From positions 2,418,001 to 2,482,000 of the forward strand of contig NZ_JAMSHO010000001.1 of NCBI RefSeq assembly GCF_040147005.1: a stretch of 64,000 nucleotides of DNA, in the 5' to 3' direction. The notes beneath the pieces are model-generated. The model ran no database searches. It saw nothing but the letters and a program-made list of their open reading frames with translations, and was not told the origin of the DNA. Positions 13,428 through 34,556 of the stretch are shown piece after piece. This DNA is from Halomonas sp. H10-9-1 (lineage in GTDB: Bacteria; Pseudomonadota; Gammaproteobacteria; Pseudomonadales; Halomonadaceae). Within the stretch, counting starts at the first letter, position 1. Each line of letters opens with the position of its first letter. Position numbers and translations under genes: made by a program.

Positions 13428-13595
13428 GGCTATCGTAGTTACCGAACCAAGGGGCGCTGGGGATAAGCCGAAGAGGAGGTCCGAGGACCAGGGACGGCCG
13501 AGGTAGCGTACAGGGAGGTATTTACAGCGCCTCCTCGTAGGCTTATCGCCAGATCAGCCCCGAGCTATCGAGCAGCCAGGCTATCTGCGATAGCC
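13428..13595 (-). repeat. Composite palindromic repeat, copy A
   Basis: Outer arms GGCTATCGTAG (13428-13438) and CTGCGATAGCC (13585-13595) are inverted. Inside, arms at 13459-13477 and 13532-13550 pair at 16 of 19 positions and enclose a 54-bp core (13478-13531) identical, in reverse orientation, to copy B at 34430-34483. It fills most of the 279-bp gap between the convergent WGR and glutaredoxin-like genes. The rest of the gap shows no gene. The right outer arm also forms a local hairpin (CCAGGCTATC-TGC-GATAGCCCTGG) that could act as terminator. Confidence 0.85.
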
Positions 13596-13683
13596 CTGGC
13601 AAGTCAGGGTACTCATCAATGTGTTGAATATATTGGGATTCCTGGTCCCTTGCTCCGCGAAATTCGTTACTGGCCGAAGGCCA

Positions 13684-14046
13684 TCAGCCCAGATAGCGTC
13701 TTCCATGGCGGATCACCGCGGCACTGGCCTCGCCATCACTAACCTCACTGTCCTTGTCCTCCTCGCTGAGCCGGCACTGAATCTGCTGCCAGGCCTTATC
13801 ATTCAGCCAGCCACGCGCCTCGAGCCAGGCGGCCAGGCGCTCGGGTTCGAAGCCGCGGTCGAGCTCTCTGCCCGCGGCATCCATCAGCACCGGGATGCGC
13901 ACCCCGTAACGCGCCATCAAGGCGTCATCCTCGCTGATCTCGATCCTCTCGAGGGTCACCGGCGCGTTTCCAAGCCGCGCCAGCAGGCCTTCCAGCTGCT
14001 GGCAGAGGTGGCAGCCCAGGGTGGTATAGAGGGTCAGCCGAATCAT
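13684..14046 (-). CDS. Glutaredoxin-like (DUF836) thioredoxin-fold protein
   Basis: 120 residues starting MIRLTLYTTLGCHLCQQLEGLL. The CHLC at residues 12-15 is a redox CxxC motif in the position used by glutaredoxins, followed by the cis-Pro segment RIPVLMD. After about residue 75 there is a short extension (WLEARGWLNDK and an acidic tail) not part of the fold. The ATG overlaps the stop of rlmKL by four bases (ATGA), so it is translationally coupled to it. The substrate is unknown; the same gene next to rlmKL may point to a role in translation, but this is inference. Confidence 0.82.
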   Translation of the reverse strand: MIRLTLYTTLGCHLCQQLEGLLARLGNAPVTLERIEISEDDALMARYGVRIPVLMDAAGRELDRGFEPERLAAWLEARGWLNDKAWQQIQCRLSEEDKDSEVSDGEASAAVIRHGRRYLG

Positions 14047-16244
14047 GCATCGCTCCCTTCTCGAGGCTCCCGATGGCAGATCAGGAACACATGGTGCAGG
14101 TCGGGCTTCCTTGAAAAATCCGGGTCGAAGGTCCGCGCTGAGATCTCCTCTACGGCATAGTGATCCGCCAGGTCGACATCCAGCGTGAAGCGTCGCTGGT
14201 TGTTGGAGAACACCAGGGTGCCGCCGGGGGCCAGGCGCGCCATGGCCAGGCGCACCAGCCGGCCGTGGTCGCGCTGGATGTCCAGGGTGTCCTTCATCTT
14301 CTTCGAGTTGGAGAAGGTCGGCGGGTCCATGAAGATCAGGTCGAACTCGGCGCGGGCACTCTGCAGCCAGCGCAGGCAGTCACTGCGCACCACGCGGTGC
14401 CGCTCGGGGTCGAGGCGGTTGAGGGCGAAGTTGTCCAGGGCCCACTGCAGGTAGGTATTGGAGAGGTCGACGCTGACGCTCTCCACCGCCCCTCCCGCAT
14501 CGCCGCGGCCCAGGGCCGCCTGCACGGTGGCCGCCCCGGTATAGCAGAACAGGTTGAGGAAGCGCTTGCCCGCGGCCATCTCACCGAGCATCCGGCGCAC
14601 CGGGCGGTGGTCGAGAAAGAGCCCGGTGTCCAGATAGTCGCGCAGGTTGACCCACAGCCTGGCCGGCCCCTCGTGCACCTCGAAGCGCTCGCCGGTGGCG
14701 GCCTGCTTCTGGTACTGGTCCCGCCCGCTCTGGCGCTGGCGTCGCTTGACCACGACCCGCACCGGGTCCACCTCGAGCACCTCGGGGATCACCGCCAGCG
14801 CCTCGAAGAGCCGCTTCTGGGCGTGACCGGCATCCACCGACTTCGGAGCCGCGTACTCCTGCACATGCACCCAGCCGGCGTAGACGTCCACCGCCATCGA
14901 ATACTCCGGCATGTCGGCATCATAGAGGCGGTAGCAGCTCTCGCCGCTCTTCTTGAGCCACTTCTTCAGTCGCTTGCGGTTCTTCTCCAGCCGGTTGGCG
15001 AACATCTGTGCCCCCTCCGAGCGTGACGGCCGAGCGGCCGGCGCGTCGTCCTCCGGCTCAGGTACCGCCATCAGCAGCAGCTTCGTCTCCAGGGGGCCGT
15101 TGCGCAGCGCGTACTGCTTGTGGGCCCGCAGGCCGATGCGGTGGCCGAGGTCGGGATTACCGGTGAATACCGCCAGGCGCCAGCCTGGGAAGGCGGTGCG
15201 CACTCGCTCGCCCAGGCGGGCATAGAGGGTGACCAGCTCCGGCAATTCGCCGAGGCGCTCGCCGTAGGGCGGGTTGGTGATCACCAGGCCCGGCGGCGCC
15301 TCAGCGAGACCCAGGGGGCGTACCAGCCCCGCCAGCCCCGCCCCCTGGAGCTCGATCAGTGCCGGGATGCCGGCGCGCATGGCGTTGGCCTTGGCCGCGG
15401 CAAGCGCCGCCGGGCTCTGGTCGAAGCCAAAGAGGCGTGAGCGGCAGCGCTTGCGGCCGATGCTGGCCCGCGCCTCGGCCTCGCGCCTGAGCTCACGCCA
15501 GGCCGCCTCGTCGTGCCCCGCCCAGCCGTGGAAGCCGAAGCGCTCCCGGGCCAGGTTGGGCGCCATGTCGGCGGCCATCAGTGCCGCCTCGATCAGCAGG
15601 GTCCCGGCACCACACAGCGGGTCCACCAGCGGCGCGCCCTGGCGTGCCAGCTCGGGCCAGCCGGCACGCAACAGCAGGGCCGCGGCCAGGTTCTCCTTGA
15701 GCGGCGCATGCCCCACGTCGCGACGATAGCCGCGACGGTGCAGGCTCTCGCCGGAGAAATCGATCCCCACCACCAGGCGACCGCGATGAAGGTTGGCGTA
15801 GAGGCGCAGGTCGGGCTGCTTGAGTTCCACCATGGGACGCGGCAACCCCCTGCCCTGCAGGCGATCCACCACGCCGTCCTTGACCGTCTGGGCGCCGAAG
15901 CGGGTATGGCGTATCTCCTCGCTACGACCGTGGAAGTCCACCGCCAGGCTGGCGGCGAGCGCCAGGTGCTGCTCCCAGGGTATGGCGGCCACCGCCTCCC
16001 GCAACTGCGCGGGAGTGCTCACGCTCTGCTCGCGGGTCAAGCACAGGATGACCCGGTTGGCCAGGCGCGACCACAGGCAGAGCCGATAGGCCGTGGCCAG
16101 GTCGGCCCGGGCATTCACCGCCCCCACGGTGCTCTTGCCGGGCGTGGCGCCAAGGGCTGACAGCTCCTCGGCCAGCAGCTCCTCGAGGCCGCGGGGACAG
16201 GTCACCAACAGATCGAGGGCGGACGTGGATAGGGTCGGATTCAT
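14043..16244 (-). CDS. rlmKL: Bifunctional 23S rRNA guanine methyltransferase RlmKL
   Basis: 733 residues from the ATG at 16244 (GGTGA upstream); a TTG two codons earlier is possible. The N-terminal half has a THUMP RNA-binding domain and an N2-guanine methyltransferase domain with motif VITNPPYGERLGE (modifies G2445, RlmL activity). The C-terminal half is a second SAM domain with FCYTGAATVQAALG and IFMDPPTFSNSKK (7-methylation of G2069, RlmK activity). The fused arrangement and length match gammaproteobacterial RlmKL (about 700). It heads a two-gene unit with the glutaredoxin-like gene and is divergent from rmf. Confidence 0.95.
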   Translation of the reverse strand: MNPTLSTSALDLLVTCPRGLEELLAEELSALGATPGKSTVGAVNARADLATAYRLCLWSRLANRVILCLTREQSVSTPAQLREAVAAIPWEQHLALAASLAVDFHGRSEEIRHTRFGAQTVKDGVVDRLQGRGLPRPMVELKQPDLRLYANLHRGRLVVGIDFSGESLHRRGYRRDVGHAPLKENLAAALLLRAGWPELARQGAPLVDPLCGAGTLLIEAALMAADMAPNLARERFGFHGWAGHDEAAWRELRREAEARASIGRKRCRSRLFGFDQSPAALAAAKANAMRAGIPALIELQGAGLAGLVRPLGLAEAPPGLVITNPPYGERLGELPELVTLYARLGERVRTAFPGWRLAVFTGNPDLGHRIGLRAHKQYALRNGPLETKLLLMAVPEPEDDAPAARPSRSEGAQMFANRLEKNRKRLKKWLKKSGESCYRLYDADMPEYSMAVDVYAGWVHVQEYAAPKSVDAGHAQKRLFEALAVIPEVLEVDPVRVVVKRRQRQSGRDQYQKQAATGERFEVHEGPARLWVNLRDYLDTGLFLDHRPVRRMLGEMAAGKRFLNLFCYTGAATVQAALGRGDAGGAVESVSVDLSNTYLQWALDNFALNRLDPERHRVVRSDCLRWLQSARAEFDLIFMDPPTFSNSKKMKDTLDIQRDHGRLVRLAMARLAPGGTLVFSNNQRRFTLDVDLADHYAVEEISARTFDPDFSRKPDLHHVFLICHREPREGSDA

Positions 16245-16415
16245 CGGCAATCACCGCGGGGGAAGTAGGGTAAATGTGTGCCATGTCAGGCAAGTGAACG
16301 AGCTGTTACAAATCGATGGTCGACAACCCGGATCGAGATGGGCTATCAATAGGGCAGTAGCTACTAAGAACACGCATGCGTTTCCTGTCATCGGGTCTGC
16401 CCTTTCCAGATACTG

Positions 16416-16442
16416 GGCCCGAGGCACGTTACGGCTCGGGCC
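16416..16442 (+). other. Hairpin in the rmf leader
   Basis: GGCCCGAG and CTCGGGCC pair around an 11-base loop, ending 47 bp before the rmf start. The 245-bp region between rlmKL and rmf otherwise shows no gene. The hairpin may lie in the 5' untranslated part of the rmf transcript. Confidence 0.45.
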
Positions 16443-16488
16443 GCTTCACTCTCCGAGCCAGTCAGATACCTTATCAAGAGGTAGTCCA

Positions 16489-16695
16489 ATGAAACGACAG
16501 AAACGTGATCGCTTCCAGCGTGCCTATACGCATGGCTACAAGGCAGGTGTCTCAGGTCGCTCCCGCGATGAGTGTCCCAGCCAGGACATCAATCTTCGCG
16601 AATACTGGATGAGCGGTTGGCGTGAAGGTCGTGGGGATCATTGGGCCGGCATGACCGGTGTCTCCGGCATTCACAAGAACCCCATGGTGGTGTGA
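16489..16695 (+). CDS. rmf: Ribosome modulation factor
   Basis: 68 residues from the ATG at 16489 with AAGAGG 8 bp upstream. The MKRQKRDRFQRAYTHGYKAG start and the GRSRDECP and GWREGR segments are the family hallmark. RMF binds 70S ribosomes in stationary phase and drives formation of inactive 100S dimers. The protein is about 13 residues longer than E. coli RMF (55), with a C-terminal extension GVSGIHKNPMVV. The neighbours rlmKL and pyrD are also its neighbours in pseudomonads, as I recall. It is followed directly by a terminator, so it is monocistronic. Confidence 0.95.
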   Translation: MKRQKRDRFQRAYTHGYKAGVSGRSRDECPSQDINLREYWMSGWREGRGDHWAGMTGVSGIHKNPMVV

Positions 16696-16732
16696 ACCCG
16701 CAACCCAATCCTACCGAGGTTCACGCCTCCTC

Positions 16733-16759
16733 AAGCCCGCGGCACGCCGCGGGCTTTTT
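16733..16759 (+). terminator. Terminator of rmf
   Basis: AGCCCGCGGC pairs with GCCGCGGGCT and is followed by TTTTT; it also lies at the 3' end of the convergent pyrD. Confidence 0.85.
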
Positions 16760-16776
16760 GCGTGCGGCCGCCTGGA

Positions 16777-17793
16777 TCAGCCGGCGTCACGCAGGGCCCG
16801 CACGCATTCGCCTACCAACGCCGGGCCGCGGTAGATGAAGCCCGAGTAGAGCTGCACCAGATCGGCCCCGGCGGCGCGCTTGGCCACGGCCGCCGCGCCG
16901 CTGTCGATGCCGCCCACGCCGACGATCGGCATCTCCGGCAGGCGGCGGCGCAACTCGCGAATGACCCGGTTGGAGGACTCGAATACCGGTCGCCCAGAGA
17001 GGCCACCCGCCTCATCGGCGTGGGCCAGGCCCGCCACCGCCTCGCGAGCGATCGTCGTATTGGTCGCGATCACCGCATCGATCGCATTGGCCGCCAGACA
17101 GCCGGCCACCAGCCCCACCTCCTCGGCCTCCATATCCGGCGCGATCTTCACCGCCAGGGGCACCCGGCGACCGCTGTCGCGATCGAGGCGCGACCCCACC
17201 TCGCGCAACGCCGAGAGCAGGCCGTCGAGGTGCTCGCCGAACTGCAGGTTGCGCAGCCCCGGGGTGTTGGGCGAGGAGATGTTCACGGTGATGTAGTGGG
17301 CGTGGGCATGAACCTTCTCGAGGCAGGCCAGATAGTCATCCACCGCCTTCTCCACCGGGGTCGTCAGGTTCTTGCCGATATTGATGCCGATCACACCGTC
17401 GAAACGGCTGGCCCTGACCTTCGCCACCAGGTGGTCGACCCCGGCATTGTTGAAGCCCATGCGGTTGATGATGGCACCCGCCTCAGGCAGCCGGAATAGC
17501 CGCGGCCGCGGGTTGCCGGGCTGAGGCCTGGGGGTCACGGTGCCGACCTCCACGAAACCGAAGCCCAGCGCGCCCAGGGCATCCAGATGATCGGCGTTCT
17601 TGTCGAGCCCGGCGGCGAGCCCCACCCGGTTGGGGAAACGCAGCCCCATCAGTTCCACCGGATCCGCCACCCGCCCGCCTCCCAGGCGAGGCGCCAGCCC
17701 CACTCGATCGGCCAGGTCCAGCCCCCGCAGGGCCAGGCCATGGGCGGTCTCGGCGTCAAGGCGGAATAGCAGCGAGCGGGCGAGGGAATACAT
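16777..17793 (-). CDS. pyrD: Dihydroorotate dehydrogenase (quinone), class 2
   Basis: 338 residues from the ATG at 17793 (AGGAG 5 bp upstream), the normal class 2 length; an upstream in-frame ATG adds 15 unsupported residues. It oxidises dihydroorotate to orotate in pyrimidine synthesis, passing electrons to quinone at the inner membrane. The amphipathic N-terminus [20 protein letters not shown] is the membrane-binding helix of class 2. FMN and substrate motifs include [20 protein letters not shown], and [14 protein letters not shown] with the catalytic Ser. The end [11 protein letters not shown] is conserved. Convergent with rmf. Confidence 0.95.
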
Positions 17794-17909
17794 GGCATCT
17801 CCTGGCGGTGGGGCGGATATGGCGAGGGTGGCGGTCACCGGCGGGGCGAGAGTATAGCAGCGCCTCCCCCCGGAAACGACGCCGCAGGGAACAGCCGACG
17901 CCGATTTTG

Positions 17910-17926
17910 TGATCTACTGTAGATCA
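17910..17926. promoter_or_regulatory. Perfect 17-bp palindrome upstream of mgtE
   Basis: TGATCTAC-T-GTAGATCA is an exact 8-bp inverted repeat with one central base, 62 bp before the mgtE start, in otherwise GC-rich DNA. Size and symmetry fit a dimeric repressor operator. The regulator is unknown. No magnesium riboswitch was recognised. Confidence 0.5.
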
Positions 17927-17987
17927 TCAAGAGACACAGGGGTGTGGGGGGTCGGGACCACACTGCCGCGGAGCCAGGGAGATGCTT

Positions 17988-19340
17988 ATGGCCGAGACCA
18001 CCGAGACCCTAGAGGACCGTCTTTCGCGGATACACCGTGCGCTCGGGGATGGACATCTCGATGCCGTGGATGCCGTGCTGGCCGACCTGGAGCCCGCCGA
18101 GATCGCCCTGCTGCTGGAGTCGCTGCCTCCCGCCGCGCGTATCCGCCTGTGGCAGCGGGTACCGGGCGAGGTCGACGGCGAGGTGCTGTTGCATGTGCAC
18201 GACGAGGTGCGCAGCACCCTGCTCGAGTACATGGATCACGAGGAGATCGTGGCCGCCGCCGCCGGCATGGATACCGCCGACCTGGCGGATATCTTCGAGG
18301 ACCTGCCCCAGCAGGTGGCCGAGGACATGCTGCGCTCCATGGACGCCCTGCAGCGCGAGCGCCTGGAGGAGACCCTCTCCTTCGAGGAGGACAGCGCCGG
18401 CCGCCTGATGCGCACCGACACCATCACGGTGCGCAGCGACGTCAGCCTGGAGACGGTGTGTCGCTTCCTGCGCTGGAAGGAGTCGATCCCGGACAACACT
18501 CACCTGCTCATGGTGGTCGACCGCGACGGCCTCTTCCAAGGCACCCTGCCGGTGGCCCGGCTGATCAGCCATCCCCCGGAGATGGCGGTGGCCGACCTGA
18601 TGGACCACGAGGTGGACAGCATCCGCGTCGACATGAAGTCCCGCGACGTGGCCACCCTGTTCCAGACCCACGACCTGGTCTCGGCGCCGGTGGTGGACGA
18701 GTCGGGCCTGCTGCTCGGGCGTATCGTCATCGACGACATCGTCGATGTCATCCGCGAGGACTCCGAGCAGGCGCTGATGAACATGGCCGGCCTCGACGAG
18801 GAGGAGGACCTGTTCGCCCCGGTGCTGCCCAGCGCCAAGCGGCGCGCCGTGTGGCTGGGCATCAACCTGATCACCGCCTTCCTGGCCGCCTGGGTGATCG
18901 GCCGCTTCGAGGATGCTCTGGACCAGATCGTGGCCCTGGCAGTGCTGATGCCCATCGTCGCCAGCATGGGCGGCATCGCCGGCAGCCAGACCTTGACCCT
19001 GGCGATACGCGGCCTGGCCCTGAGCCAGATCAGCAGCACCAATAGCGCCTGGCTGCTGCGCAAGGAGGTCGGCATCGCCATTCTCAACGGCGTGCTGTGG
19101 GCCCTGATCGTGGCGGTACTGGCTCTGCTGTGGTTCAAGAGCCTCTCCATCGGCGTCATCATCGGTGCCGCCCTGGTGATCAACATGCTGGCGGCGGGCA
19201 TCGCCGGCATCATCATCCCCCTGCTGCTCAAGCGGGCGGGCATCGACCCGGCGCTGTCGGGCTCGGTGATTCTCACCACCGTCACCGACGTGGTGGGCTT
19301 CATGTCCTTCCTGGGCCTGGCCACCTACTTCCTGCTCTGA
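17988..19340 (+). CDS. mgtE: Magnesium transporter MgtE
   Basis: 450 residues from the ATG at 17988; AGGGAG lies 6 bp upstream, whereas the in-frame ATG at 17982 touches it directly. Domain order is the MgtE N-terminal helical domain (about 1-125, with LEPAEIALLLESLP), a pair of CBS domains (about 130-255) and five C-terminal membrane helices (about 280-450) carrying the pore motif ASMGGIAGSQTLTLAIRGLA. MgtE is a Mg2+-gated channel-like importer in the inner membrane; the acidic N and CBS domains sense cytosolic Mg2+. Full length. The gene stands alone, with an upstream palindrome and a strong downstream hairpin. Confidence 0.95.
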   Translation: MAETTETLEDRLSRIHRALGDGHLDAVDAVLADLEPAEIALLLESLPPAARIRLWQRVPGEVDGEVLLHVHDEVRSTLLEYMDHEEIVAAAAGMDTADLADIFEDLPQQVAEDMLRSMDALQRERLEETLSFEEDSAGRLMRTDTITVRSDVSLETVCRFLRWKESIPDNTHLLMVVDRDGLFQGTLPVARLISHPPEMAVADLMDHEVDSIRVDMKSRDVATLFQTHDLVSAPVVDESGLLLGRIVIDDIVDVIREDSEQALMNMAGLDEEEDLFAPVLPSAKRRAVWLGINLITAFLAAWVIGRFEDALDQIVALAVLMPIVASMGGIAGSQTLTLAIRGLALSQISSTNSAWLLRKEVGIAILNGVLWALIVAVLALLWFKSLSIGVIIGAALVINMLAAGIAGIIIPLLLKRAGIDPALSGSVILTTVTDVVGFMSFLGLATYFLL

Positions 19341-19362
19341 TCCACCCCCCCACCCCGCTCGC

Positions 19363-19410
19363 CACCGCAACGAGAAACCCCGCCGATCGGCGGGGTTTCT
19401 CGTTGCGGTG
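19363..19410. terminator. Perfect 22-bp hairpin between mgtE and the glutamate dehydrogenase gene
   Basis: The arms 19363-19384 and 19389-19410 are exact inverted repeats (core ACCCCGCC/GGCGGGGT) around a GATC loop. It is the longest perfect stem in the window. There is no U-tract on either side. Confidence 0.85.
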
Positions 19411-19422
19411 GGTGACAATCGC

Positions 19423-22400
19423 TCAGGAGTCGCGACTGCTCTCGGCCAGGTCGACCAGCTCGCGCACGGCCACGGCGAAGAGGGGGAAGCCGCCCTGGCC
19501 ACCGCTGCCCACCTGCTCGAGCAGGCGGCGCCAACGCGCATGCATGGCATCATGGCGCTCCAGCCACTCGGCGACCCGCGCCTCCGCGTCGCTGGCCCCC
19601 CCCTCCATCTGCAACACGCTGACCGTCAGCGCCAGTTGCTGGCGGTCGATGTCGTCACGGAAGGTCTCACGGGCCTGGGATTGCCAGCTGTCGCGCACCT
19701 CCAGCTCGTTGATCCGGCGGATCATCCACGGCAGCTCCAGGCGGTTGCCGACCTCGTAGAAGACCTCGGCCACCCGCTCCGGCGCCACATCCGCCTGGCG
19801 CGCGGCCTGGATGATGCCCAGCCCGGCATAGAGGCTGCCGGCCGCCGCCACGCTGACCGCCAGCGGCTCGGGCACGCCGGCCTCCATCCATTCATCACGC
19901 TGCGCCTCCCAGGCGGCTCGCTCCTCGCCGCTGAGGCGCTCGCCGATACCCTCGCGGATCGCCGCCAGGCGCGGGGCGAAGTAGTCGATGCACTGGGCAG
20001 TATCAGCGCCGGCGCGGCCGCGCAGGAACCAGCGAGTGGCGCGCCGGATCAGCCGCATCAGGTCGAGCATCATGGCGTACTGCACCGCGCTCGGCACCCG
20101 ATTGTCCAGCGCCTCGATCTGTGACCAGGTCTCGCCCAGCCCGAACACCTCCCGGGCAATGACATAGGCGCGGGCGATCTCGGCTCGGCCGGCCCCGGTG
20201 GAATCGATCAGGCGCCGCACGAAGACGATACCCATGTGATCGACCAGGTCGTTGGCCACCTGGGTGGCAACGATCTCGCGCTTGAGGCGATGCTCGTACA
20301 TCTCGTCGCGGTAACGCTCCACCAGCACCCGCGGGAAGATACGCTCCACATGACACACGATCACCGGGTCGTCGGGCACGTCGGAGACGATCAGGTCACC
20401 CTTGAGTACGCTCTTGGCATAGGAGATCAGCATCGCCAGCTCCGGCAGCAGCATGCCCGGCTGGTTGGCGGCACGCTCCTGGAGCTCATCATCCGCGGGC
20501 AGGAACTCCAGCTCGCGGTCGAGCTGGCCGGCAGCCTCCAGTTCGCTGATGAAGCGCCGGAAGGGGCCGACCCCCTGCTTCGAGAGCAGCTCCGCCAGGT
20601 CGAGCGCCTGGGTCTGGCGGTAATTGTCGAGCAGCACCAGGTCGCGGACCTCACCGGTCATCTCGGCGAGCAGCCGGTTGCGCTGCTTGTCGGTCATGTC
20701 GCCACGCTTGACCACCTCATCGATGAGGATCTTGATGTTGACCTCATGGTCGGAGCAGTTCACCCCGCCGGCGTTATCGATGAAGTCGGTATTGACGCGC
20801 ACGCCACGGGCGGCGGCCTCCATGCGGCCACGCTGGGTCAGGCCGAGGTTGCCGCCTTCGCCCACCACCCGGCAGTTGAGCTCGCGGCCGTCGATGCGCA
20901 GGCCATCGTTGGCCTTGTCGCCTACCTGGGCATCGCTCTCTTCGCTGCCCTTGACGTAGGTGCCGATGCCGCCGTTCCAGATCAGGTCCACCTCGGACTT
21001 GAGCATGGTGCTGATCAGTTCGTTGGGTGACAGCTTGTCCGCGCGGATGCCGAAGCGCCGCTTCATCTGGGCCGATACCGGGATCGACTTGGCACTGCGC
21101 TTGAATACCCCGCCACCCTCGGAGATCAGCGTGGCATCGAAGTCTTCCCAGCTGGAGCGCGGCATCTCGAACAGGCGCTTGCGCTCGGCGAACGTGGCCG
21201 CAGCATCGGGCTCTGGGTCGACGAAGATATGCAGGTGGTTGAAGGCCCCCACCAGGCGAATCCGGTCGGAGAGCAGCATGCCATTGCCGAAGACATCACC
21301 CCCCATGTCACCGATGCCCACCACGCTGAACTCGTCCTCCTGGGTGTTCACCCCCAGGCCACGGAAGTGGCGCTTGACCGACTCCCAGGCCCCCTTGGCG
21401 GTGATGCCCATCTTCTTGTGGTCGTAGCCGTTGGCACCGCCCGAGGCGAAGGCGTCGCCCAGCCAGTGGTCATACTCGGCGGAGATCTCGTTGGCGATAT
21501 CGGAGAAGGTCGCGGTGCCCTTGTCGGCGGCCACCACCAGGTAGGCGTCATCCTCGTCGTGGCGCACCACGTCGCGCGGGGGGACCACCTCGCCGCCCTT
21601 GAGGTTGTCGGTCACGTCGAGCAGGGCGCGGATGAAGGTCTTGTAGCACTCGACCCCCTCACGCTGAAATGCCTCGCGATCGCCCTCGGGTAGCCGCTTG
21701 CAGACGAAGCCGCCCTTGGCGCCCACCGGCACGATCACCGAGTTCTTGACCTGCTGCGCCTTGACCAGGCCCAGTACCTCGGTGCGGAAGTCCTCGTGGC
21801 GGTCGGACCAGCGCAGCCCTCCCCGGGCCACCTTGCCACCGCGCAGGTGTACGCCCTCGATCCGCGGCGAACAGACGAAGATCTCGAAGGCCGGGCGTGG
21901 CTTGGGCATGCCGGTGACCCTGGAGGGTTCCAGCTTGAAGGCGATGTAGTCCTTGACGCTACCGTCCTCACGACGCTGATAGTAGTTGGTGCGCAGGGTC
22001 GCCAGGATCAGCTCCATATAGCGGCGCAGCAGCTGGTCGTCGTTGAGGCTGGCCACGTCATCCAGCAGCCGCTGGATGCGCTCCACGCAGGCCTCCACCT
22101 CGCCCTCGGCGGGACGCTCGGCGGGGTCGAAGCGCAGCTCGAACAGCGTCACCAGCTCGCGCGTGATCTCCGGATGGCTGGCCAGGGTATTGGCCATGTA
22201 GTCCTGGGAGACCCCGAAGCGGATCTGCTTGAGGTAGCGGGCGTAGGCGCGCAGCATCGCCACCTCGCGCCAGTCGAGGTTGGCGCCGATGATCAGGCGG
22301 TTGAAGGCGTCGTTGTCCGCCTCGCCGGCCCAGATGCGCTGGAAGGCCTCGATGAAGGGGCCGCGCATCTCCTGGAGATTGACCTCGGTGCTGGTGTGGT

Positions 22401-24261
22401 GCTCGAGATAGAAGTCGTGGATCCAGTAGCTGGCATCGGTGGCGTTGATCTCGTAGGGACGCTCGCCGAGCACCCTCAGCCCGAGGTTCTCCATCATCGG
22501 CAGCACGTCGGAGAGCGGAATCGACGAGTCACGGTGGAACAGCTTGAGGTTGACCCCGCTGCCCTCCTCCTCTACCAGCCGGTAGAGCAACAGCGACAGC
22601 GCATCACCGTCATCCAGCTCGCCGATATGGTGCAGGTCATAGACGGCGGTGCGAGCGCTGAAGTCATCGCGGTAGCTGGCCGGGAAGGCATCTCGGAAGC
22701 GGTCCATCAGGCGGTTGGCTTGCTCCTCGCCGAAGCCTTCGACACAGGCGGCCTGGAGGTCGTCACGCCAGTTGCGTGCCAGCTTGGCCAGCTTGGCCTC
22801 GAGACGCTTGAGGTCATACTCGACCGGGCGCTCCCCCTTGAAGCGCAGGATGAACTGGATGCGCGCCAACACCGACTCCGAGAGGTAGGTGTTGAAGTCA
22901 CCGAAGCTGGCGTCGAGCTCCTCGCAGAGCATCTCCTGGATGCGCAGGCGCAGCTCGGTGGAGAAGACGTCCCGCGGCACGAAGGCCAGGCAGGAGTAAA
23001 AGCGTCCCGGGTGATCCTCGCGCACGAAGAGGCGCACACGGCGGCGCTCGCGGATGCTGAGAATGCCCAGCGCGGTCTGCGCCAGCTCCTGGGTATCGAT
23101 CTGGAAGAGGTCGTCACGGGGGTAGACCTCGAGGGCCTGCAGAAGCTGCTTGCCGTTGTGCCCCTTGGGATTGAAGCCGGCGATCTCCATCACCGACTTG
23201 AGCTTGCGGCGCAGGATCGGCACGTTGCGCGGCGACTCGTTGTAGACGGTGGCGGTAAACAGCCCCAGGAAGCGATGCTCGCCGATCAGCTGCCCACGCT
23301 CGTCATAGCGGTCGATGGAGATATAGTCGGGATAGGTGGGGCGGTGAACCCGAGCGTGGTGGGCACTCTTGGAGAAGCTCAGGAGCTCAGGCACCAGCAC
23401 GTAATGGCCATCCTCGACGCCAAGTTCGGTGCGGATACGCTCCCGGTAGCGGGGCTGATCGAGGCGGAACACCCCGAGTTCGCTGCCCTTGACCTTGTCG
23501 AGCGTTTCCTTGCCGCCCTTCTTCTTCACCGCATAGGCGTCATACCCCAGGAAGGTGAAGTTGTCCTGACGCATCCACTCGATGAAGGTGATCGCCTCGG
23601 CATGGTCGTCCGGGTTGGTCTGCGGCGGACAGCCGGCACGCAGCTCCTGGAGGGCCTCCTCGACCTTGGCGCACATGGGGTCGAAGTCGGCCACCGCGGT
23701 ACGCACATCGACCAGTACCTCCTCGAGGCTGGCCTGCATCTCCTGCAGCACCTCGACATCGGAGCAGCGGTCGATCTCGATAACGATCAACGACTCGCGC
23801 TGGGCCGGGGCGGTGGCATCCTTCGGCGAGGTCAGCTGCTGCAGGCGATGGCCACGGCCCCGCTCGGTAGCCAGAACGGCATTGTGGATGGCGTGCACGG
23901 TGATGCCGCGCCGGTTGAGCTCGATACGCACCGAGTCGACCAGGAACGGCATGTCCTCGTGCAGCACCGCCACGAAGGTGTGGGGCGACTGCCAGCCGTG
24001 CTCCTCGAAGTCCGGATTGAAGACCCGCACCTTGGGGTCGCTCGGATCGAACTGCTGCAGGAAGTGCCACACCGAGAGGGTGGCACCGTAGACGTCGTCG
24101 AGCCGACGATTCTCCAGGTCATCCAGCGGCACGGCGGCATAGAAGTAGTCGGCGAAGGCGCCGACAGCCTCCGCCTTGGCGGCGTCCAGCTTGGCGCTCA
24201 GCCTCTCATGAAGCTGCTTGAGCAGATCTTGTCTGGCTTCGTCATTCGCAACGTGCTGCAT
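19423..24261 (-). CDS. gdhB: NAD-specific glutamate dehydrogenase, large (180-kDa) class
   Basis: 1612 residues, typical for the very large NAD-GDH class found in Pseudomonas, Streptomyces and marine gammaproteobacteria. It deaminates glutamate to 2-oxoglutarate and is mainly catabolic. The long N-terminal regulatory part carries ACT-like segments (about residues 30-250), and the central catalytic domain has PVGAKGGFVCKRLP with the active Lys, and GIGDMGGDVFGNGMLLS plus FNHLHIFVDPEPDA for NAD binding. A helical C-terminal domain follows. GAGGTGAT precedes the ATG. The upstream trmA is 167 bp away in the same direction. Regulation in relatives is allosteric (arginine, aspartate), not testable here. 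Symbol by analogy with Pseudomonas. Confidence 0.93.
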   Translation of the reverse strand: MQHVANDEARQDLLKQLHERLSAKLDAAKAEAVGAFADYFYAAVPLDDLENRRLDDVYGATLSVWHFLQQFDPSDPKVRVFNPDFEEHGWQSPHTFVAVLHEDMPFLVDSVRIELNRRGITVHAIHNAVLATERGRGHRLQQLTSPKDATAPAQRESLIVIEIDRCSDVEVLQEMQASLEEVLVDVRTAVADFDPMCAKVEEALQELRAGCPPQTNPDDHAEAITFIEWMRQDNFTFLGYDAYAVKKKGGKETLDKVKGSELGVFRLDQPRYRERIRTELGVEDGHYVLVPELLSFSKSAHHARVHRPTYPDYISIDRYDERGQLIGEHRFLGLFTATVYNESPRNVPILRRKLKSVMEIAGFNPKGHNGKQLLQALEVYPRDDLFQIDTQELAQTALGILSIRERRRVRLFVREDHPGRFYSCLAFVPRDVFSTELRLRIQEMLCEELDASFGDFNTYLSESVLARIQFILRFKGERPVEYDLKRLEAKLAKLARNWRDDLQAACVEGFGEEQANRLMDRFRDAFPASYRDDFSARTAVYDLHHIGELDDGDALSLLLYRLVEEEGSGVNLKLFHRDSSIPLSDVLPMMENLGLRVLGERPYEINATDASYWIHDFYLEHHTSTEVNLQEMRGPFIEAFQRIWAGEADNDAFNRLIIGANLDWREVAMLRAYARYLKQIRFGVSQDYMANTLASHPEITRELVTLFELRFDPAERPAEGEVEACVERIQRLLDDVASLNDDQLLRRYMELILATLRTNYYQRREDGSVKDYIAFKLEPSRVTGMPKPRPAFEIFVCSPRIEGVHLRGGKVARGGLRWSDRHEDFRTEVLGLVKAQQVKNSVIVPVGAKGGFVCKRLPEGDREAFQREGVECYKTFIRALLDVTDNLKGGEVVPPRDVVRHDEDDAYLVVAADKGTATFSDIANEISAEYDHWLGDAFASGGANGYDHKKMGITAKGAWESVKRHFRGLGVNTQEDEFSVVGIGDMGGDVFGNGMLLSDRIRLVGAFNHLHIFVDPEPDAAATFAERKRLFEMPRSSWEDFDATLISEGGGVFKRSAKSIPVSAQMKRRFGIRADKLSPNELISTMLKSEVDLIWNGGIGTYVKGSEESDAQVGDKANDGLRIDGRELNCRVVGEGGNLGLTQRGRMEAAARGVRVNTDFIDNAGGVNCSDHEVNIKILIDEVVKRGDMTDKQRNRLLAEMTGEVRDLVLLDNYRQTQALDLAELLSKQGVGPFRRFISELEAAGQLDRELEFLPADDELQERAANQPGMLLPELAMLISYAKSVLKGDLIVSDVPDDPVIVCHVERIFPRVLVERYRDEMYEHRLKREIVATQVANDLVDHMGIVFVRRLIDSTGAGRAEIARAYVIAREVFGLGETWSQIEALDNRVPSAVQYAMMLDLMRLIRRATRWFLRGRAGADTAQCIDYFAPRLAAIREGIGERLSGEERAAWEAQRDEWMEAGVPEPLAVSVAAAGSLYAGLGIIQAARQADVAPERVAEVFYEVGNRLELPWMIRRINELEVRDSWQSQARETFRDDIDRQQLALTVSVLQMEGGASDAEARVAEWLERHDAMHARWRRLLEQVGSGGQGGFPLFAVAVRELVDLAESSRDS

Positions 24262-24428
24262 CCATCACCTCGGCTACCGGCGGCCGCTGCTGCGACCGGA
24301 AGTGTTCGACACGGCCCCGGCGGGACCCTGTCGCCAGCTTACGCGACTCCCGAAGCACGACCCAGCCACTTGACGATCTGCTCATGGAGCATGTTGGTTG
24401 CGCATCGCCACTCGCGGGAAAGGCGCCG

Positions 24429-25556: not shown

Positions 25557-25614
25557 GAAGCCTCCAGGAGTTCCAGTGAACGGTAGTAGGGTGTAGAAAG
25601 CGGGGCTCGGTCGT

Positions 25615-26391
25615 TCAGTCCAGGCTCAGCGGCTGCGGACGGGCGAAGCCGAACCGCGCCAGGGCCCTGGCCAGCACTGCGTCGGGGGCGGTGGCAAGGC
25701 TAGCCCCGGGGCCCGTCGAGGTAGCCACGCCGGCCACCACCTGAGCCGTGCGCCGGGCGATGGCGTCGCTGGAGTCCACCCAGGCCACCTCGCGGGGAGC
25801 GGCGGTCGCCAGTGCGTCGCGCAGCAGCGGGAAGTGAGTGCAGCCGAGTACCACGGTGTCGAGTGCGGGGTCCTTCCACAGTGGCGCCAGGGCCGCCTCG
25901 ATCACGGCAACATCGGGCGGCTCGCCGGCCAGCTGTCGTTCCGCCTCGCGCACCAGGGAATCCGCCGCGACCCGCCGTACCGTGCAGTGCGCGGCGAAGG
26001 CCTCGATCAGACGCAGCGTATAGGGGCGCGCCACCGTGGCGCTGGTGGCCAACAGGCCAATATGGCCACTGCGGCTGAGGGCGGCGGCGGGCTTGATCGC
26101 CGGCACCGTGCCCACCACCGGGACCCGCAGCCGCTCGCGCAAGGCGTCCAGGGCCAGCGTGCTCGCGGTATTGCAGGCCACCACCAGCGCCACGCAGCCG
26201 CTGGTGCGCACGGCGGCCTCGCACACCGCGAGGATACGCCGCACCAGCCAGGCATCCTCACGTCGCCCGTAGGGCAGCATGGCATTGTCGCAGGCATAGG
26301 CCAGGGCCGCCCGAGGCAGCCGCTCGCGCAGGGCCGCCACCACCGAGAGGCCGCCCACACCGGAGTCGAAGACCAGGATCGGACCCGCCAT
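25615..26391 (-). CDS. murI: Glutamate racemase
   Basis: 258 residues, ATG preceded by GGGAGG. It converts L- to D-glutamate for peptidoglycan. The family motifs are FDSGVGGLSV at the N-terminus (catalytic Asp), the first catalytic Cys in VVACNTAST (about residue 75) and the second in VLGCTHFPLL (about residue 185). Length is normal though at the short end for proteobacteria. It stands 58 bp before trmA and 167 bp after the hemerythrin-like gene on the same strand, so co-transcription with trmA is plausible. Confidence 0.95.
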   Translation of the reverse strand: MAGPILVFDSGVGGLSVVAALRERLPRAALAYACDNAMLPYGRREDAWLVRRILAVCEAAVRTSGCVALVVACNTASTLALDALRERLRVPVVGTVPAIKPAAALSRSGHIGLLATSATVARPYTLRLIEAFAAHCTVRRVAADSLVREAERQLAGEPPDVAVIEAALAPLWKDPALDTVVLGCTHFPLLRDALATAAPREVAWVDSSDAIARRTAQVVAGVATSTGPGASLATAPDAVLARALARFGFARPQPLSLD

Positions 26392-26558
26392 CAGCCTGCC
26401 TCCCGGCGCCTCGAGGACGGGGCGGGAAGGCAGGATGTTGACGGGGCTAGAAGGATCGGAGGGAGCATGACGAGACGCTGGCCGCTGAGATAGCCGCCCA
26501 TTCTACCCCACACTTGGCGGCAAGCCGAGGCCCGCACCCGGCGTCTGGCCGGAGGCGC

Positions 26559-27110
26559 TCAGGTCACCGGCTCGGGGGCATCGCGCAGCTCGGCATAGAG
26601 TTCGGGGTAGGCCTCCTGCAGCCGTTCGAGCTGCGCCTGGGCACCCTCGGGCAGCGCTGCCGCCAGGGCCTTGAGGTCCTCTTCATTGAAGTTCTCGCGA
26701 ATCAGCGGAAACAGCAGCTCGCGCTCGTCGCGCAGGTAAGCGCGGTGGCTGTCCAGGTAGGCCCTGAGGTCCTCGGCGAAATGATCCATGGGCACCACGG
26801 CATCCATCAGGATCATGTCGAGGTCGTTGGACAGGCGCTTGAGCCGGACCTGCAGCGCCCGATAGTCCTGTGACAGACGCTCGGTCACCTCGGCGCTGGA
26901 GGGGTCCAGCTCCGTGAGTCGCTCCGTGCAAACCTTCTCGAGCGGCTGGGTGAAGCCTTCCTGATAGTCGAGGATGTAGTCGACAACCTCGCGGACCAGT
27001 TGGAAATTGGGACGCTCGCCGTCGGCCAGGGTCTTCTGCTTGAGCTGCAGAACGTGCAACATGCGCGCCATATTGGCATGATCCTGACGCAGCTGAGTCA
27101 GCATGGGCAT
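26559..27110 (-). CDS. Hemerythrin-like (HHE domain) cytoplasmic protein
   Basis: 183 residues from the ATG at 27110, directly behind AGGAGG; a longer frame to 27233 lacks a binding site. The protein is an all-helical HHE cation-binding domain: MPMLTQLRQDHANMARMLHVL supplies the first His, YQEGFTQPLEKV and the later MDHFAEDLRAYLDSHRAYLRDERELLFPLI region (two stretches) the others. The second canonical His position reads Gln (DYQEGF instead of a typical DYPxxxHH), so the metal site is altered. Relatives are linked to iron, nitrosative stress or oxygen sensing. The substrate is unknown. Divergent from rarA by 160 bp. Confidence 0.78.
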   Translation of the reverse strand: MPMLTQLRQDHANMARMLHVLQLKQKTLADGERPNFQLVREVVDYILDYQEGFTQPLEKVCTERLTELDPSSAEVTERLSQDYRALQVRLKRLSNDLDMILMDAVVPMDHFAEDLRAYLDSHRAYLRDERELLFPLIRENFNEEDLKALAAALPEGAQAQLERLQEAYPELYAELRDAPEPVT

Positions 27111-27270
27111 GTCGGGCCCTCCTGTATGGTACATGGGAGAAGGCACTCTCCATTGGATGCGCCATCCGGGACAGGGTTCACCGTGAAGCCCATTCGGCCC
27201 CTCGACGCCCCCCCACTCTAGCAGCCCGGCCACCGGCCTGCCGCTTTTCGATCAACGCAAGGAGTCGCCC

Positions 27271-28611
27271 TTGGATCTCTTCGCAAGCGACCGTGACGAC
27301 GACGCCCCGCTCGCCTGGCGCATGCGGCCGCGCCGGCTGGACGACTATGTGGGACAACAGGCGCTGGTCGGCCCCGGCAAGCCACTGCGGCGCATGGTCG
27401 AGAGCGGCGTGGTGCGCTCGATGATCCTGTGGGGGCCGCCGGGCACCGGCAAGACCACCCTGGCCGAGATCCTGGCCGCCGAGTCCGGCGCTCACCTCGA
27501 GCACCTCTCCGCGGTGATGGCCGGCGTCAAGGAGATCCGTGCCGCCGTGGAGCGCGCCAGGGCCCAGCAGTCCCTAGGGATGGCGACCCTGCTGTTCCTC
27601 GACGAGATCCATCGCCTCAACAAGAGCCAGCAGGACGCCCTGCTGCCCCATGTGGAATCAGGCCTGCTGACCCTGATCGGCGCCACCACCGAGAACCCCT
27701 CCTTCGAGGTCAACTCGGCACTGCTCTCCCGTGCCCGGGTGCATGTGCTGACATCGCTCTCCGAGGAGGAGCTGGTGGAGGTGCTGCAACGTGCGCTGGC
27801 CGACGCGGCGCGCGGCCTGGGTGCGCGGCATATCCGGGCCGAGGCGGAGGTGCTTGGGGTGCTGGCCCGGGCCGCCGCCGGCGATGCGCGCCGCGCCCTG
27901 GGGCTGCTGGAGAGCGCCTGTGACTTCGCCGATGCCAGCCCCGAGGGCGGCGAGACGCTGCGCCGGGAAGCCCTGGAGGCGGTGCTGGGCCACCAGACCA
28001 GCGCCTTCGACAAGCAGGGCGACCACTTCTATGACCTGCTGTCGGCGATCCACAAGTCGGTGCGCTCCTCGCGCCCGGACGCCGCCCTGCTCTACATGGC
28101 CCGCTTCCTCCAGGGCGGAGGCGATCCACTGGATGTGATTCGGCGCCTGACCGCCATCGCCTCCGAAGACGTGGGCAATGCCGACCCCCGCGCCCTGCCC
28201 CTGGTGATCGCCGCCTGGGACGCCTACCTGCGCCTGGGTGACTACGAGGGACAGCGCGCCATCGCCCACGCCGCCATCCACCTGGCGGTGGCTCCCAAGA
28301 GCAACGCCGTCGACCAGGCCTGGCATCAGGCCAAGGCCTTCGCGGCCGGCCAGCCACAACTAGAGGTGCCGACCTACCTGCGCAATGCCCCCACCAAGCT
28401 GATGGAATCGCTGGGCCACGGCCAGGGCTACCGCTATGCGCATCACGAGCCTCATGGCTACCCCGCCGGCAGCGGCCACGACTGCTGGCCGGAGGCGCTT
28501 CCGCGCGAAAGGTTCTACCGCCCCACCGAGTTCGGTCAGGAGAAGCGCTACGGCCAGCTGATGGCCTGGCGCGAGCAGCTCGACGCCGAGGCGGATGAGG
28601 GCGAGACATAG
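27271..28611 (+). CDS. rarA: Replication-associated recombination ATPase RarA (MgsA)
   Basis: 446 residues from a TTG start with AAGGAG 6 bp upstream; the MDLF start matches a known C-terminal-like clamp/SSB contact of the family. RarA is an AAA+ clamp-loader-related ATPase acting at stalled forks. Walker A is GPPGTGKT (55-62), Walker [10 protein letters not shown] (107-115), sensor 1 [18 protein letters not shown]. The tetramerisation domain ends in the usual DCWPE and [14 protein letters not shown] stretches. In many gammaproteobacteria rarA follows lolA in the same direction; here it is convergent with lolA, so the segment has been rearranged. Confidence 0.95.
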
Positions 28612-28652
28612 CGACAAGCGGCCAAGCAGAATAGCGTTGCCGCAAGAAAGAA

Positions 28653-28681
28653 CCCCTGCCGGAACGGGAATCCGACAGGGG
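28653..28681 (-). terminator. Hairpin between rarA and lolA
   Basis: CCCCTG-C-CGGA pairs with TCCG-A-CAGGGG with one mismatch around an 7-base loop. On the minus strand it is followed by TTCTTTCTT, so it chiefly ends lolA, but it can also serve rarA. Confidence 0.75.
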
Positions 28682-28747
28682 CTCTCACTCATTGCCTCAA
28701 CGCCTACCCCACGCCGCCGACCTGCTCGGCGCTTGCAGCCTGGCGCT

Positions 28748-29377
28748 TTAGTAGGTCTCGCGAATCACGTCGGTGCCATCCGGGATCACAAGGTCGAAGC
28801 GCGCCTCCTCGATATCCTGGTTCATCTGCACGTCGTGGAAGGCGATGGCCGTGCGCTGGCCGGTGCTGTCGAGCATCTCCAGGCCGACCAGGCGTTCGCC
28901 GCGGAAGGTCATCTCCAGCGCCTCGAAGAGGGTGTCGGGGTCCTTCGGCAGCAGGCTGAAGCGCTCGGCGCTGCCCTGCTGGCTGCGCGTGACATCGAAG
29001 CTCTCGACCAGCTCATCGGCGCTGCCGGAGAGCAGCAGGGCCGGCGTATGCGTCACGCGCTGATCCAGCGCCTGCACCGTTGCCTGTTCAAGGTCAGGGT
29101 CGTAGAGCACGACCTCCTCGCCATCGGAGACCACCAGCTGCTGATAGGGCGCATCCACCTCCCAGCGGAATTTTCCGGGCCGCGACAGCCACATGCTGCC
29201 GTGCGCCGCCTGCAACCGCTCACCGCTGGCATCGAGTATCTGCTGCTCGAAGGTGGCCTCGTATGTCTGCATCGGTTCCAGTATGCGACTGAGGCGCTCC
29301 GCACCTTCGCTCGCCAGGGCCGATAGCGGCATGGCGAGGCCAACGACGAGGGTGGCGAGTGTCTTCTTCACTGTCAT
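28748..29377 (-). CDS. lolA: Outer-membrane lipoprotein carrier protein LolA
   Basis: 209 residues from the ATG at 29377 with AGGGAGA 6 bp upstream; the longer frame to 29506 is rejected because this start gives a signal peptide (MTVKKTLATLVVGLAMPLSA, cleaved after ALA). LolA is the periplasmic chaperone that ferries lipoproteins from LolCDE to LolB. Visible features are the YEATFEQQILDASGERLQ start of the mature protein, the GSMWLSRPGKFRWEVD segment with the conserved Arg in the cavity region, and PDGTDVIRE at the end. It lies 132 bp after ftsK on the same strand. Confidence 0.93.
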   Translation of the reverse strand: MTVKKTLATLVVGLAMPLSALASEGAERLSRILEPMQTYEATFEQQILDASGERLQAAHGSMWLSRPGKFRWEVDAPYQQLVVSDGEEVVLYDPDLEQATVQALDQRVTHTPALLLSGSADELVESFDVTRSQQGSAERFSLLPKDPDTLFEALEMTFRGERLVGLEMLDSTGQRTAIAFHDVQMNQDIEEARFDLVIPDGTDVIRETY

Positions 29378-29509
29378 GTCTGTCTCCCTGGACGGTGCCG
29401 ATGGAATCCTGTCACTCGGACCCCGCATGCGCCGGCGGGTTGCGTCTCCAGCGGCGCGTTCATGATAGCTGCATGGTCGGAGGCCGATGTCGCCAGACGG
29501 CGACATCGA

Positions 29510-32704
<3,195 letters not shown>

Positions 32705-32854
32705 CTGGTCATCTCCCTTGCGCCACGCCTGGCGCCTTGCGAATGCGTGGCGCCAATCATACCCGAGCGAAGGCACCGCATCACAGTCGCCACGCCTTGA
32801 GCGATGGGGCCGCGGACGGCACACTGCTTCCTCTCCCTCAAGGATGCCGACGCG

Positions 32855-33598
32855 ATGCTGCCCTGGCTGCCCCCCTCACCCGTGCATTCCCCCCCCGTGA
32901 GCGAGGCACTGCGCGATCCCGGTGGCCTGTTGGCGGCCGGCGGAACACTCGCCCCCGAGTGGCTGCTGGCCGCCTACCGGCGGGGCATCTTTCCCTGGTT
33001 CAGCGACAACCAGCCGATCCTGTGGTGGAGCCCGGATCCGCGCATGGTGCTGTTCCCGGACGAGATCCGGATACGCCGCAGCCTGGCCAAGCGCCTGCGT
33101 AACGGCGGCTTCACGGTCACCGCCAATCGCGCCTTCGAGGCCGTGATGGCGGCCTGTGCGGCGCCCCGTGCAGAGCAGCCGGGCACCTGGATCGGCGACG
33201 AGATGCGTGCCGCCTACGCGCGCCTGCACACCATCGGCGCGGCCCATTCGGTCGAGGTCTGGCGGGGCGGCGCCCTGGTCGGCGGACTCTACGGCGTCGC
33301 CCTGGGGCCGGTGTTCTTCGGCGAGTCGATGTTCTCGCGGGTTGCCGACGCCTCCAAGATCGCCCTGGTGCGGCTGGCCGGTGCGATGTCCGCGGGCGGC
33401 GGCCAGCTGATCGACTGCCAGATGCATACCCGCCACCTGGCCAGCCTGGGCGCCCGGGATATCGCCCGACAAAGGTTCATCGACTATCTTGAAGAGTGGC
33501 TGGGCAGCCCCGCTGGCGATCCCTCATCGGGCGATCTGTGGGTACCCGCCTGCTGGTCCTTCGCGCCCCTCGCCGGGCCTGCCAGCCATTCCGACTGA
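32855..33598 (+). CDS. aat: Leucyl/phenylalanyl-tRNA-protein transferase
   Basis: 247 residues from the ATG at 32855 (AAGGA about 10 bp upstream); the longer frame from 32804 has no homology. Aat transfers Leu or Phe from tRNA onto N-terminal Lys/Arg of proteins, creating N-degrons for ClpS. Motifs include [36 protein letters not shown], the TWIGDEM segment, [25 protein letters not shown] and the closing [14 protein letters not shown]. Length matches the family (about 230-240) with a short C-terminal tail. The next gene, bpt, starts 25 bp after the stop, so they form an operon. Confidence 0.95.
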
Positions 33599-33623
33599 CC
33601 GCCCAGAGCCAGGGAGAGCCACC

Positions 33624-34361
33624 GTGAGCAGCAACACCCCCCGCCAGCCGACCCGGGACCTGCGTTTCTTTCTCACCGTGCCCCACGCCTGCAGCTACCT
33701 GGAGGGGCGTGAAGCGACCACGCTGTTCCTGGACCCCCAGGAGTCCCCCGGCCAAGGGGTCTATGATGCCCTGGCCCTGCTTGGCTTCCGACGCAGCGGC
33801 CGACACCTCTATCGTCCCCACTGCGAAGGCTGCAGTGCCTGTATCTCGGTGCGCATCCCGGTGGCGGAGTTCTCGCCCAGCCGCACGCAACGGCGCCTGC
33901 TGCGGCGCAACGCCGACCTCACCCTCCACCTGCGACCGGCGATCTTCGACCCCGAACACTACGCCCTCTACGCGCATTACATCCGCACCCGCCATGCCGA
34001 CGGCGACATGTATCCGCCGAGCCACGAGCAGTATCGCACCTTCCTGACCCTCGACCAGCCCTATGCCCGGCTGCTCGAACTCCGCCTGGAGGGTCGCCTG
34101 GTGGCGGTGGCGGCCTTCGACCAGCTCGAGCACGGCATCTCGGCGATCTACACCTTCTTCGCCCCCGAGCAGAGCCTGGAGCGACGCTCCCTGGGCACCT
34201 ATGCGGTCCTCTGCCTTATCGACCTGGCGCGGCGTCGCGAGCTGCCCCATGTCTACCTGGGCTACTGGATCCGCGAATGCCGCAAGATGGCCTACAAGCA
34301 GGCCTTCCAGCCACTCGAGCGCCTGGAGGGTCGCCACTGGCGGCGGCTGATACCCGCATGA
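33624..34361 (+). CDS. bpt: Aspartate/glutamate leucyltransferase (Bpt)
   Basis: 245 residues from the GTG at 33624, with GGGAGAG 5 bp upstream; the in-frame sequence before it has no homology. Bpt attaches Leu from tRNA to N-terminal Asp or Glu, a bacterial relative of eukaryotic ATE1. The N-terminal domain shows PHACSYLEGREATTLFLDP and the cysteine motif HCEGCSACISVRIPV; the C-terminal domain shows the acetyltransferase-like YTFFAPEQSLERRSLGTYA and YLGYWIRECRKMAYK. Together with aat it widens the range of N-degrons handed to ClpS/ClpA. The stop codon is part of a 13-bp direct repeat bordering repeat copy B. Confidence 0.94.
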   Translation: MSSNTPRQPTRDLRFFLTVPHACSYLEGREATTLFLDPQESPGQGVYDALALLGFRRSGRHLYRPHCEGCSACISVRIPVAEFSPSRTQRRLLRRNADLTLHLRPAIFDPEHYALYAHYIRTRHADGDMYPPSHEQYRTFLTLDQPYARLLELRLEGRLVAVAAFDQLEHGISAIYTFFAPEQSLERRSLGTYAVLCLIDLARRRELPHVYLGYWIRECRKMAYKQAFQPLERLEGRHWRRLIPA

Positions 34362-34556
34362 CTGCAACCGCATGGCTATCGCAGATGGCGACACCGCTCA
34401 AGGCTTCTCCGGCGACAGGCCTTCGAGGGGGCGCTGTAAATACCTCCCTGTACGCTACCTCGGCCGTCCCTGGTCCTCGGACCCCCTCTCCGACCTGTCC
34501 CCGGCGCCTTTCGCTATCGCAGCATAGCTAACTGCGACTGCCCTGACTGCAACCGC
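34359..34556. repeat. 13-bp direct repeats flanking palindromic repeat copy B
   Basis: TGACTGCAACCGC occurs at 34359-34371 (starting with the bpt stop codon) and at 34544-34556, enclosing 172 bp that contain repeat copy B. This resembles a target duplication, but could also be chance similarity within repeat-rich DNA. Confidence 0.6.
34374..34542 (+). repeat. Composite palindromic repeat, copy B
   Basis: Outer arms GGCTATCGCAG (34374-34384) and CTGCGACTGCC (34532-34542); inner arms 34411-34429 and 34484-34502 pairing at 14 of 19 positions; identical 54-bp core at 34430-34483 relative to copy A. It occupies most of the 305-bp gap between bpt and infA, which has no gene. A second CTATCGCAG is at 34514-34522. 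It may form a cruciform or a large RNA hairpin in the infA leader region. Confidence 0.85.

Follow-up and report, generated by a model that had tools for sequence, protein, structure and literature searches.

The published RsmE consensus is A/U-CANGGANG-U/A and the CsrA consensus is RUACARGGAUGU, whose GGA mostly lies in a hairpin loop of 6 nt with AC/GU as its closing bases (PMC6849547, PMC7652899). CsrB/RsmZ-type sRNAs and mRNA CsrA sites carry GGA in hairpin loops, with several sites per RNA (PMC7652899). The TwoAYGGAY RNA (RF01731) has been predicted from motif similarity to bind CsrA (PMC4333381) and is listed for human gut, gamma-Proteobacteria and Clostridiales (PMC2864571); neither dispersal as a repeat nor mobile cargo is mentioned for it in the available portions of these two papers. 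The closing stem of the TwoAYGGAY RNA encloses two hairpins with AYGGAY-type loops; the repeat examined here resembles it in its two hairpins, with ANGGAN loops whose second letter is often G, not Y. With the RF01731 model, no match was obtained up to E 10 in the window copies or in the distant copy L472, and the best distant repeat reached 35.3 bits (1 of 12 distant loci scanned) against a gathering cut-off of 43 bits. By analogy, we suggest that the repeat works like the TwoAYGGAY RNA, without claiming that it is one. Like the CsrB/RsmZ-type sRNAs it has GGA in hairpin loops and more than one site, but it carries two sites per unit at tens of intergenic places. An Rfam scan of the window at gathering cut-offs returned only a tRNA, and scans of the stretches around both copies up to E 10 returned nothing relevant. 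High-ranking microRNA matches on distant copies fell below the cut-off and were read as generic long-hairpin matches.

The window, the whole 64,000-nt stretch of the Halomonas sp. H10-9-1 genome that was analysed, contains two copies of the repeat, A and B. A sequence-only reading had placed both copies and their identical core correctly, while its lengths of 168 and 169 bp fell slightly short of the true extent, 174 and 175 bp. The features are as follows; gene names (ate, infA, etc.) are by-eye readings of translations, not annotations.

13425..13598, minus strand: copy A, an ISAs1-type MITE of 174 bp (genome 2431425-2431598) with inverted ends CAGGGCTATCGCAG
13415..13424, no strand: left target duplication of copy A, equal to 13599-13608 at 9/10 positions
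13599..13608, no strand: right target duplication of copy A, 9/10 equal to the left one
13443..13564, minus strand: structured unit of copy A (covariance model R1, 131.8 bits)
13511..13518, plus strand: hairpin 1 loop of copy A, CAGGGAGG (CANGGANG), from the sequence; a 6-nt loop in the + strand RNA fold
13489..13496, plus strand: hairpin 2 loop of copy A, CAGGGACG (CANGGANG), from the sequence and the + strand RNA fold
34371..34545, plus strand: copy B, an ISAs1-type MITE of 175 bp directly 3' of ate, with ends resembling CAGGGCTATCGCAG
34361..34370, no strand: left target duplication of copy B, ACTGCAACCG, equal to 34546-34555 at 10/10 positions
34546..34555, no strand: right target duplication of copy B, 10/10 equal to the left one
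34397..34518, plus strand: structured unit of copy B (covariance model R1, 132.4 bits)
34443..34450, minus strand: hairpin 1 loop of copy B, CAGGGAGG (CANGGANG), from the sequence and the - strand RNA fold
34465..34472, minus strand: hairpin 2 loop of copy B, CAGGGACG (CANGGANG), from the sequence and the - strand RNA fold

Both window copies are non-autonomous ISAs1 MITEs, because their ends and 10-bp duplications match an intact ISAs1-family element in the genome of a relative, G006. That genome holds two 1,196-bp elements with the same ends as copies A and B and perfect 10-bp duplications (10/10 in both), and the one that was read encodes a 363-aa transposase (394 bits against NF033564, ISAs1 family, cut-off 70). 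The terminal inverted repeats CAGGGCTATCGCAG are common to A, B and the autonomous element with 0–2 mismatches per end (copy A: none at the 13598 end, one at the 13425 end; copy B: one at one end, two at the other), and the duplication length is the same, 10 bp, with 9/10 and 10/10 positions equal in A and B. The window copies thus resemble an ISAs1-family MITE in ends, duplication length and lack of a gene; they differ in carrying a structured unit that is also found independently of the transposon, and provide an example of a structured RNA-like module as ISAs1 MITE cargo. G092 and G040 have no insertion at the copy B site in the ate-infA spacer, and the copy A site is empty by eye in G092 and G086. 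The ate-infA spacer of G086 holds an opposite-orientation copy between ACTGCAACTG and ACTGCAACCG, that of G076 a longer opposite-orientation copy, and the copy A site of G099 an independent insertion with a 10-bp duplication (by eye). The earlier guess of a small non-autonomous mobile unit is thus borne out by the ISAs1-type ends, the target duplications and the empty sites in relatives, and the ends and empty sites suggest that an ISAs1 transposase mobilises the MITEs in trans.

MITE versions of ~83, 175 and 256 bp were found, plus a few with other lengths and contents. The ~83-bp version lacks the inner unit, apparently through deletion between CCCCGGCG repeats, and the ~256-bp version holds an extra 86-nt module. 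This module (at least 33 matches, 30 fetched) sits in the hairpin-2 loop in 29/29 copies with a readable left end; it destroys the hairpin-2 motif described below and supplies another, so that the total is still two in 26 of the 29. The module is itself a stem with two hairpins and has several stem variants in L279-L308, as if repeatedly inserted or exchanged.

The inner unit, ~120 nt with long arms enclosing two hairpins, also occurs without transposon ends. Among 127 copies with enough flank (2 of 129 matches were left out as their flanks were too short), MITE ends were present in 23 and absent from 104; the latter, termed free units here, are bordered fairly sharply by GCTCGGGGCTGATCC...GGCGCCCCTCGCT. 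An origin of free units from MITEs by erosion of the ends was considered and rejected: ends were found at 11 of 30 loci (L185 borderline), and at the other 19 none stood clearly above shuffles, with L205 exceeding them by one on one side. Target duplications of free units gave nothing beyond chance in a set of 30 copies of both classes. Flanking repeats in these 30 were 10/10 in three copies and 9/10 in seven, shuffled pairs giving 3 and 43 of 284; all of the 10/10 copies and two of the seven 9/10 copies were of the MITE class, with the repeat abutting the ends.

The repeat family is far beyond chance in copy number. A BLAST search of this genome with copy B gave at least 42 matches (40 of 90 candidates scored), and a covariance model built from 28 copies of this genome gave at least 51 matches at E<=0.001, with at least 37 above 95 bits (150 of 3046 candidates scored). 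The same model gave at least 34 and at least 23 matches in two related genomes (150 candidates scored each). By BLAST, the repeat was present in 23 of the 24 other genomes of the genus that were examined and in 0 of 13 genomes of other families; a pattern scan of named genomes gave at least 80 matches, and the 80 listed all stood under Halomonadaceae names. An order-wide model search, with stricter filters and 18 candidates scored per genome, found matches at E<=1e-6 in 47 of 194 genomes and 28 of 96 genera, the window's own included, and none at that threshold in three of the family's other sampled genomes. The phages searched contained no match, and the plasmids searched gave one matching record, a 1.8-Mb Halomonas replicon.

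The sequence-only reading had noted compensated arm changes between A and B and concluded that a fold is under selection. The compensation is real and general. In the 28-copy alignment from this genome, two-sided changes occurred at 22 of 35 pairs (96 cells changed on both sides versus 4 on one side), and among 99 copies from other genomes at 33 of 35 pairs (474 versus 21 cells), with 94.2% of 3,424 cells pairing; a near-duplicate (L013) and an interrupted copy (L029) were left out of the two alignments, A1 and A2. Shuffle and slide controls of the 28-copy alignment were far lower, except for further pair types (29 versus 28.7 in shuffles), and for the 99 copies shuffles averaged 118 two-sided cells and slides gave at most 62. 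Neither of the outcomes named beforehand as refuting, absence of further copies and uncompensated arm changes, was observed. The step from two copies to selection did not hold by itself, because different master copies or whole-hairpin exchange could produce the same difference, and the core described as invariant is identical between A and B only: across the family the loop motifs and the junction are fixed and the stems vary. Whole-copy DNA folds of A and B were mildly better than shuffles (z -1.71 and -1.94); the case for structure rests on the alignments and not on a single fold. In distant genomes the arms pair over roughly 20–30 bp, differing among the eight copies read in G182 and being common to several copies in G270 (all by eye).

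The scarcity of one-sided steps together with rare G-U pairs is unusual and departs from the way RNAs ordinarily evolve. Part of the one-sided scarcity is due to copies exchanging hairpins as blocks, as seen at the leuD-leuB spacer (below). The excess of G-U cells on the GGA strand, 68 versus 24 on the other strand, is a weak sign of an RNA form, leaning on few pairs and appearing in every context, MITE units included.

Both hairpin loops keep CNTCCNTG, whereas the N positions and the stems vary. The complement of CNTCCNTG is CANGGANG, the published RsmE/CsrA consensus. In hairpin 2, CNTCCNTG was present in 89 of the 99 copies from other genomes, the ten exceptions being seven longer inserted loops, one copy without a loop and two base changes. 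In hairpin 1 it was present in 99/99, although the search pattern itself required the motif for the pattern-scan loci. Distant copies gave a similar picture: hairpin 1 was located by an anchor, which forced the first C, in 33 of 38 distinct copies, the five unforced fixed letters were present in 33/33, and at least two motifs occurred in 50 of 53 distinct distant copies. In the RNA folds of the GGA strands of A and B, all four motifs lie in 6-nt loops closed by C-G, and 19 nt separate the two GGA triplets of copy B; some other copies form an additional A-U pair, which leaves a loop of 4 nt in the drawing. The form of a CsrA/RsmA site, CANGGANG with GGA in a hairpin loop, is present in sequence and predicted fold. 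One csrA gene per genome was found in 6/6 genomes examined, and its product is close to CsrA proteins of known structure, with which it aligns over 58 residues.

We consider that the repeat is probably a dispersed, partly mobile, bivalent element predicted to bind CsrA/RsmA. Its basic unit of ~120 nt consists of long closing arms with asymmetric internal loops leading to a junction with two short hairpins, each of which, on one strand, shows C(ANGGAN)G, as CsrA/RsmA-binding sites do in their hairpin form. A transcript containing the GGA strand would then offer two sites to CsrA dimers in an intergenic spacer, and CsrA bound to the unit could change the stability or translation of a neighbour or be drawn from other mRNAs. 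The unit would spread in two modes, as ISAs1-type MITE cargo (both window copies), with transposase presumably supplied in trans, and as a free-standing unit without terminal repeats. Transcription of the units, CsrA binding, and regulation or titration by them are what we infer from these sequence features, which point to RNA-level regulation, in line with the earlier guess of a structured regulatory site.

The units lie between genes, and their orientation relative to these genes bears on this proposal. Among 157 distinct copies, counted at co-directional genes, the GGA strand was in the mRNA for 66 of 83 free units (66:17) and for 13 of 25 MITE units (13:12); ten 'edge' matches and two inside a predicted gene were left out, and the counts rest on gene calls from our own codon model. 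After grouping by shared flanks (108 sites), free units gave 46:9 plus one tie (p 4e-7) and MITE units 9:9 plus two ties. In distant genomes the count was 20:13, in the same direction and not convincing. Both window copies belong to the MITE class, that is, the class without strand preference: copy B has the wrong strand for the flanking ate and infA, its GGA strand not being in their mRNA, and the genes on either side of copy A are convergent, its GGA strand being expected in the 3' region of the + strand gene. The orientation of A and B, the distant 20:13, the dominance of two-sided changes with rare G-U pairs and the reversed units at leuD-leuB (next paragraph) count against the CsrA/RsmA-binding reading.

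The leuD-leuB spacer illustrates how units behave at one locus. Within the best 30 matches among the 90 genomes searched, a unit was present in 25, absent from 4 and unreadable in 1; the GGA strand was in the leuB mRNA in 16/25 and reversed in 9/25 (1 of the 25, L433, counted by eye). The copy of the window genome is 96–99% identical to those of four relatives and at most 91% to its own paralogues, and is taken to be orthologous near this genome on that comparison. In other genomes, units appear by eye to be replaced or turned, some with remnants alongside. L437 and L455 share the left flank and the left part of the unit and have different hairpin-2 stems, a sequence difference that we read as whole-hairpin exchange. 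Slow in-place decay was rejected for this locus, mean unit identity being nearly independent of gene divergence: the unit is identical in two genomes at 80% fourfold-site identity, and others differ wholesale.

Such inversion and replacement at one locus would also be expected of purely selfish mobile DNA, whose fold and loops serve mobility, e.g. as ssDNA hairpins for a transposase, with incidental effects on genes. The proven MITE class with its ends and duplications, the rare G-U pairs, and the insertion of the 86-nt module and of an IS110-family element within units fit this explanation as well. We nevertheless hold it to be unlikely, as the 104 of 127 units that are free lack ISAs1 ends and yet are strand-biased relative to genes, unlike MITE units. 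Y1 transposases do not track the repeat, and the free units of this genome are not biased in opposite directions between the replication arms (+/- 4/8 and 2/5), with no sign of replication-strand insertion.

The tight intercistronic fit of the units (in 53 tight antisense cases, a median distance of 24 nt from the preceding stop codon and 51 nt from the following start codon) and their strong stems would suit a REP-like hairpin that stabilises or processes mRNA by its fold, without CsrA. A plain stem, however, would work on either strand and need no fixed loop letters, whereas here the pattern of fixed and variable loop letters matches the CANGGANG consensus, and we give this explanation a low probability. 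The repeat resembles REP/BIME sequences in being intergenic, palindromic and present in many copies, but it is longer and has no partner Y1 transposase; a REP with a RAYT (Y1) partner was rejected, PF01797 being absent from 10 repeat-bearing genomes and matching once in the repeat-free G001. A role as a nucleoid site or through DNA structure (a cruciform, or binding of gyrase or another protein) is very improbable: palindromic arms, both orientations and intergenic position agree with it, but the strand bias and the loop letters kept on top of pairing do not, and although by eye only 1 of 37 strong copies of this genome (G000) is found in the region of about 350 kb to either side of the likely origin, placed from sampled GC skew, G023 shows no obvious depletion near its origin (by eye).

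CsrA/RsmA regulons are usually explained site by site. Building on the CsrA/RsmA-binding reading, we tentatively raise a broader possibility, somewhat short of an even chance on the sequence evidence: that much of this bacterial order carries families of mobile or exchangeable DNA with a bivalent CsrA-binding RNA payload, in which units lodged between genes on the proper strand would bring new operons under CsrA control and jointly act as a dispersed sponge for the one CsrA protein, with selection maintaining both loops and whole blocks of arm and hairpin stem being swapped. If true, dispersed paired CsrA sites would explain growth or shift of regulons between species and would provide dozens of natural near-identical test sites per genome; the family also offers a mobile-element setting for an orphan, TwoAYGGAY-like RNA type. 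Searches of the open-licence literature on Halomonas palindromes or MITEs, ISAs1 MITEs, IS110 with REPs, and CsrA with repeats returned nothing on the repeat, and core sequence strings returned three unrelated papers only.

Other families of the order (L497-L535, L472-L489) have the same twin-hairpin core, with long arms often differing between copies within a genome. A small extra hairpin of type CCGGNGYGCCGGACC is present in the left internal loop of L268, L270, L271, L274 and L275, and in L262, L269 and L276 the arms are kept and both hairpins lost.

IS elements have been reported to target REPs (PMC1525189), and in a further likeness to REP/BIME three copies (L309, L310 and L311) have an IS110-family element joined to the unit at hairpin 1. 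Its transposase, as read in L309 and L310, has 346 aa and scores 333 bits against NF033542. In a fourth unit (genome 2,348,486/2,349,955), about 1.4 kb interrupts hairpin 1 at this very position.
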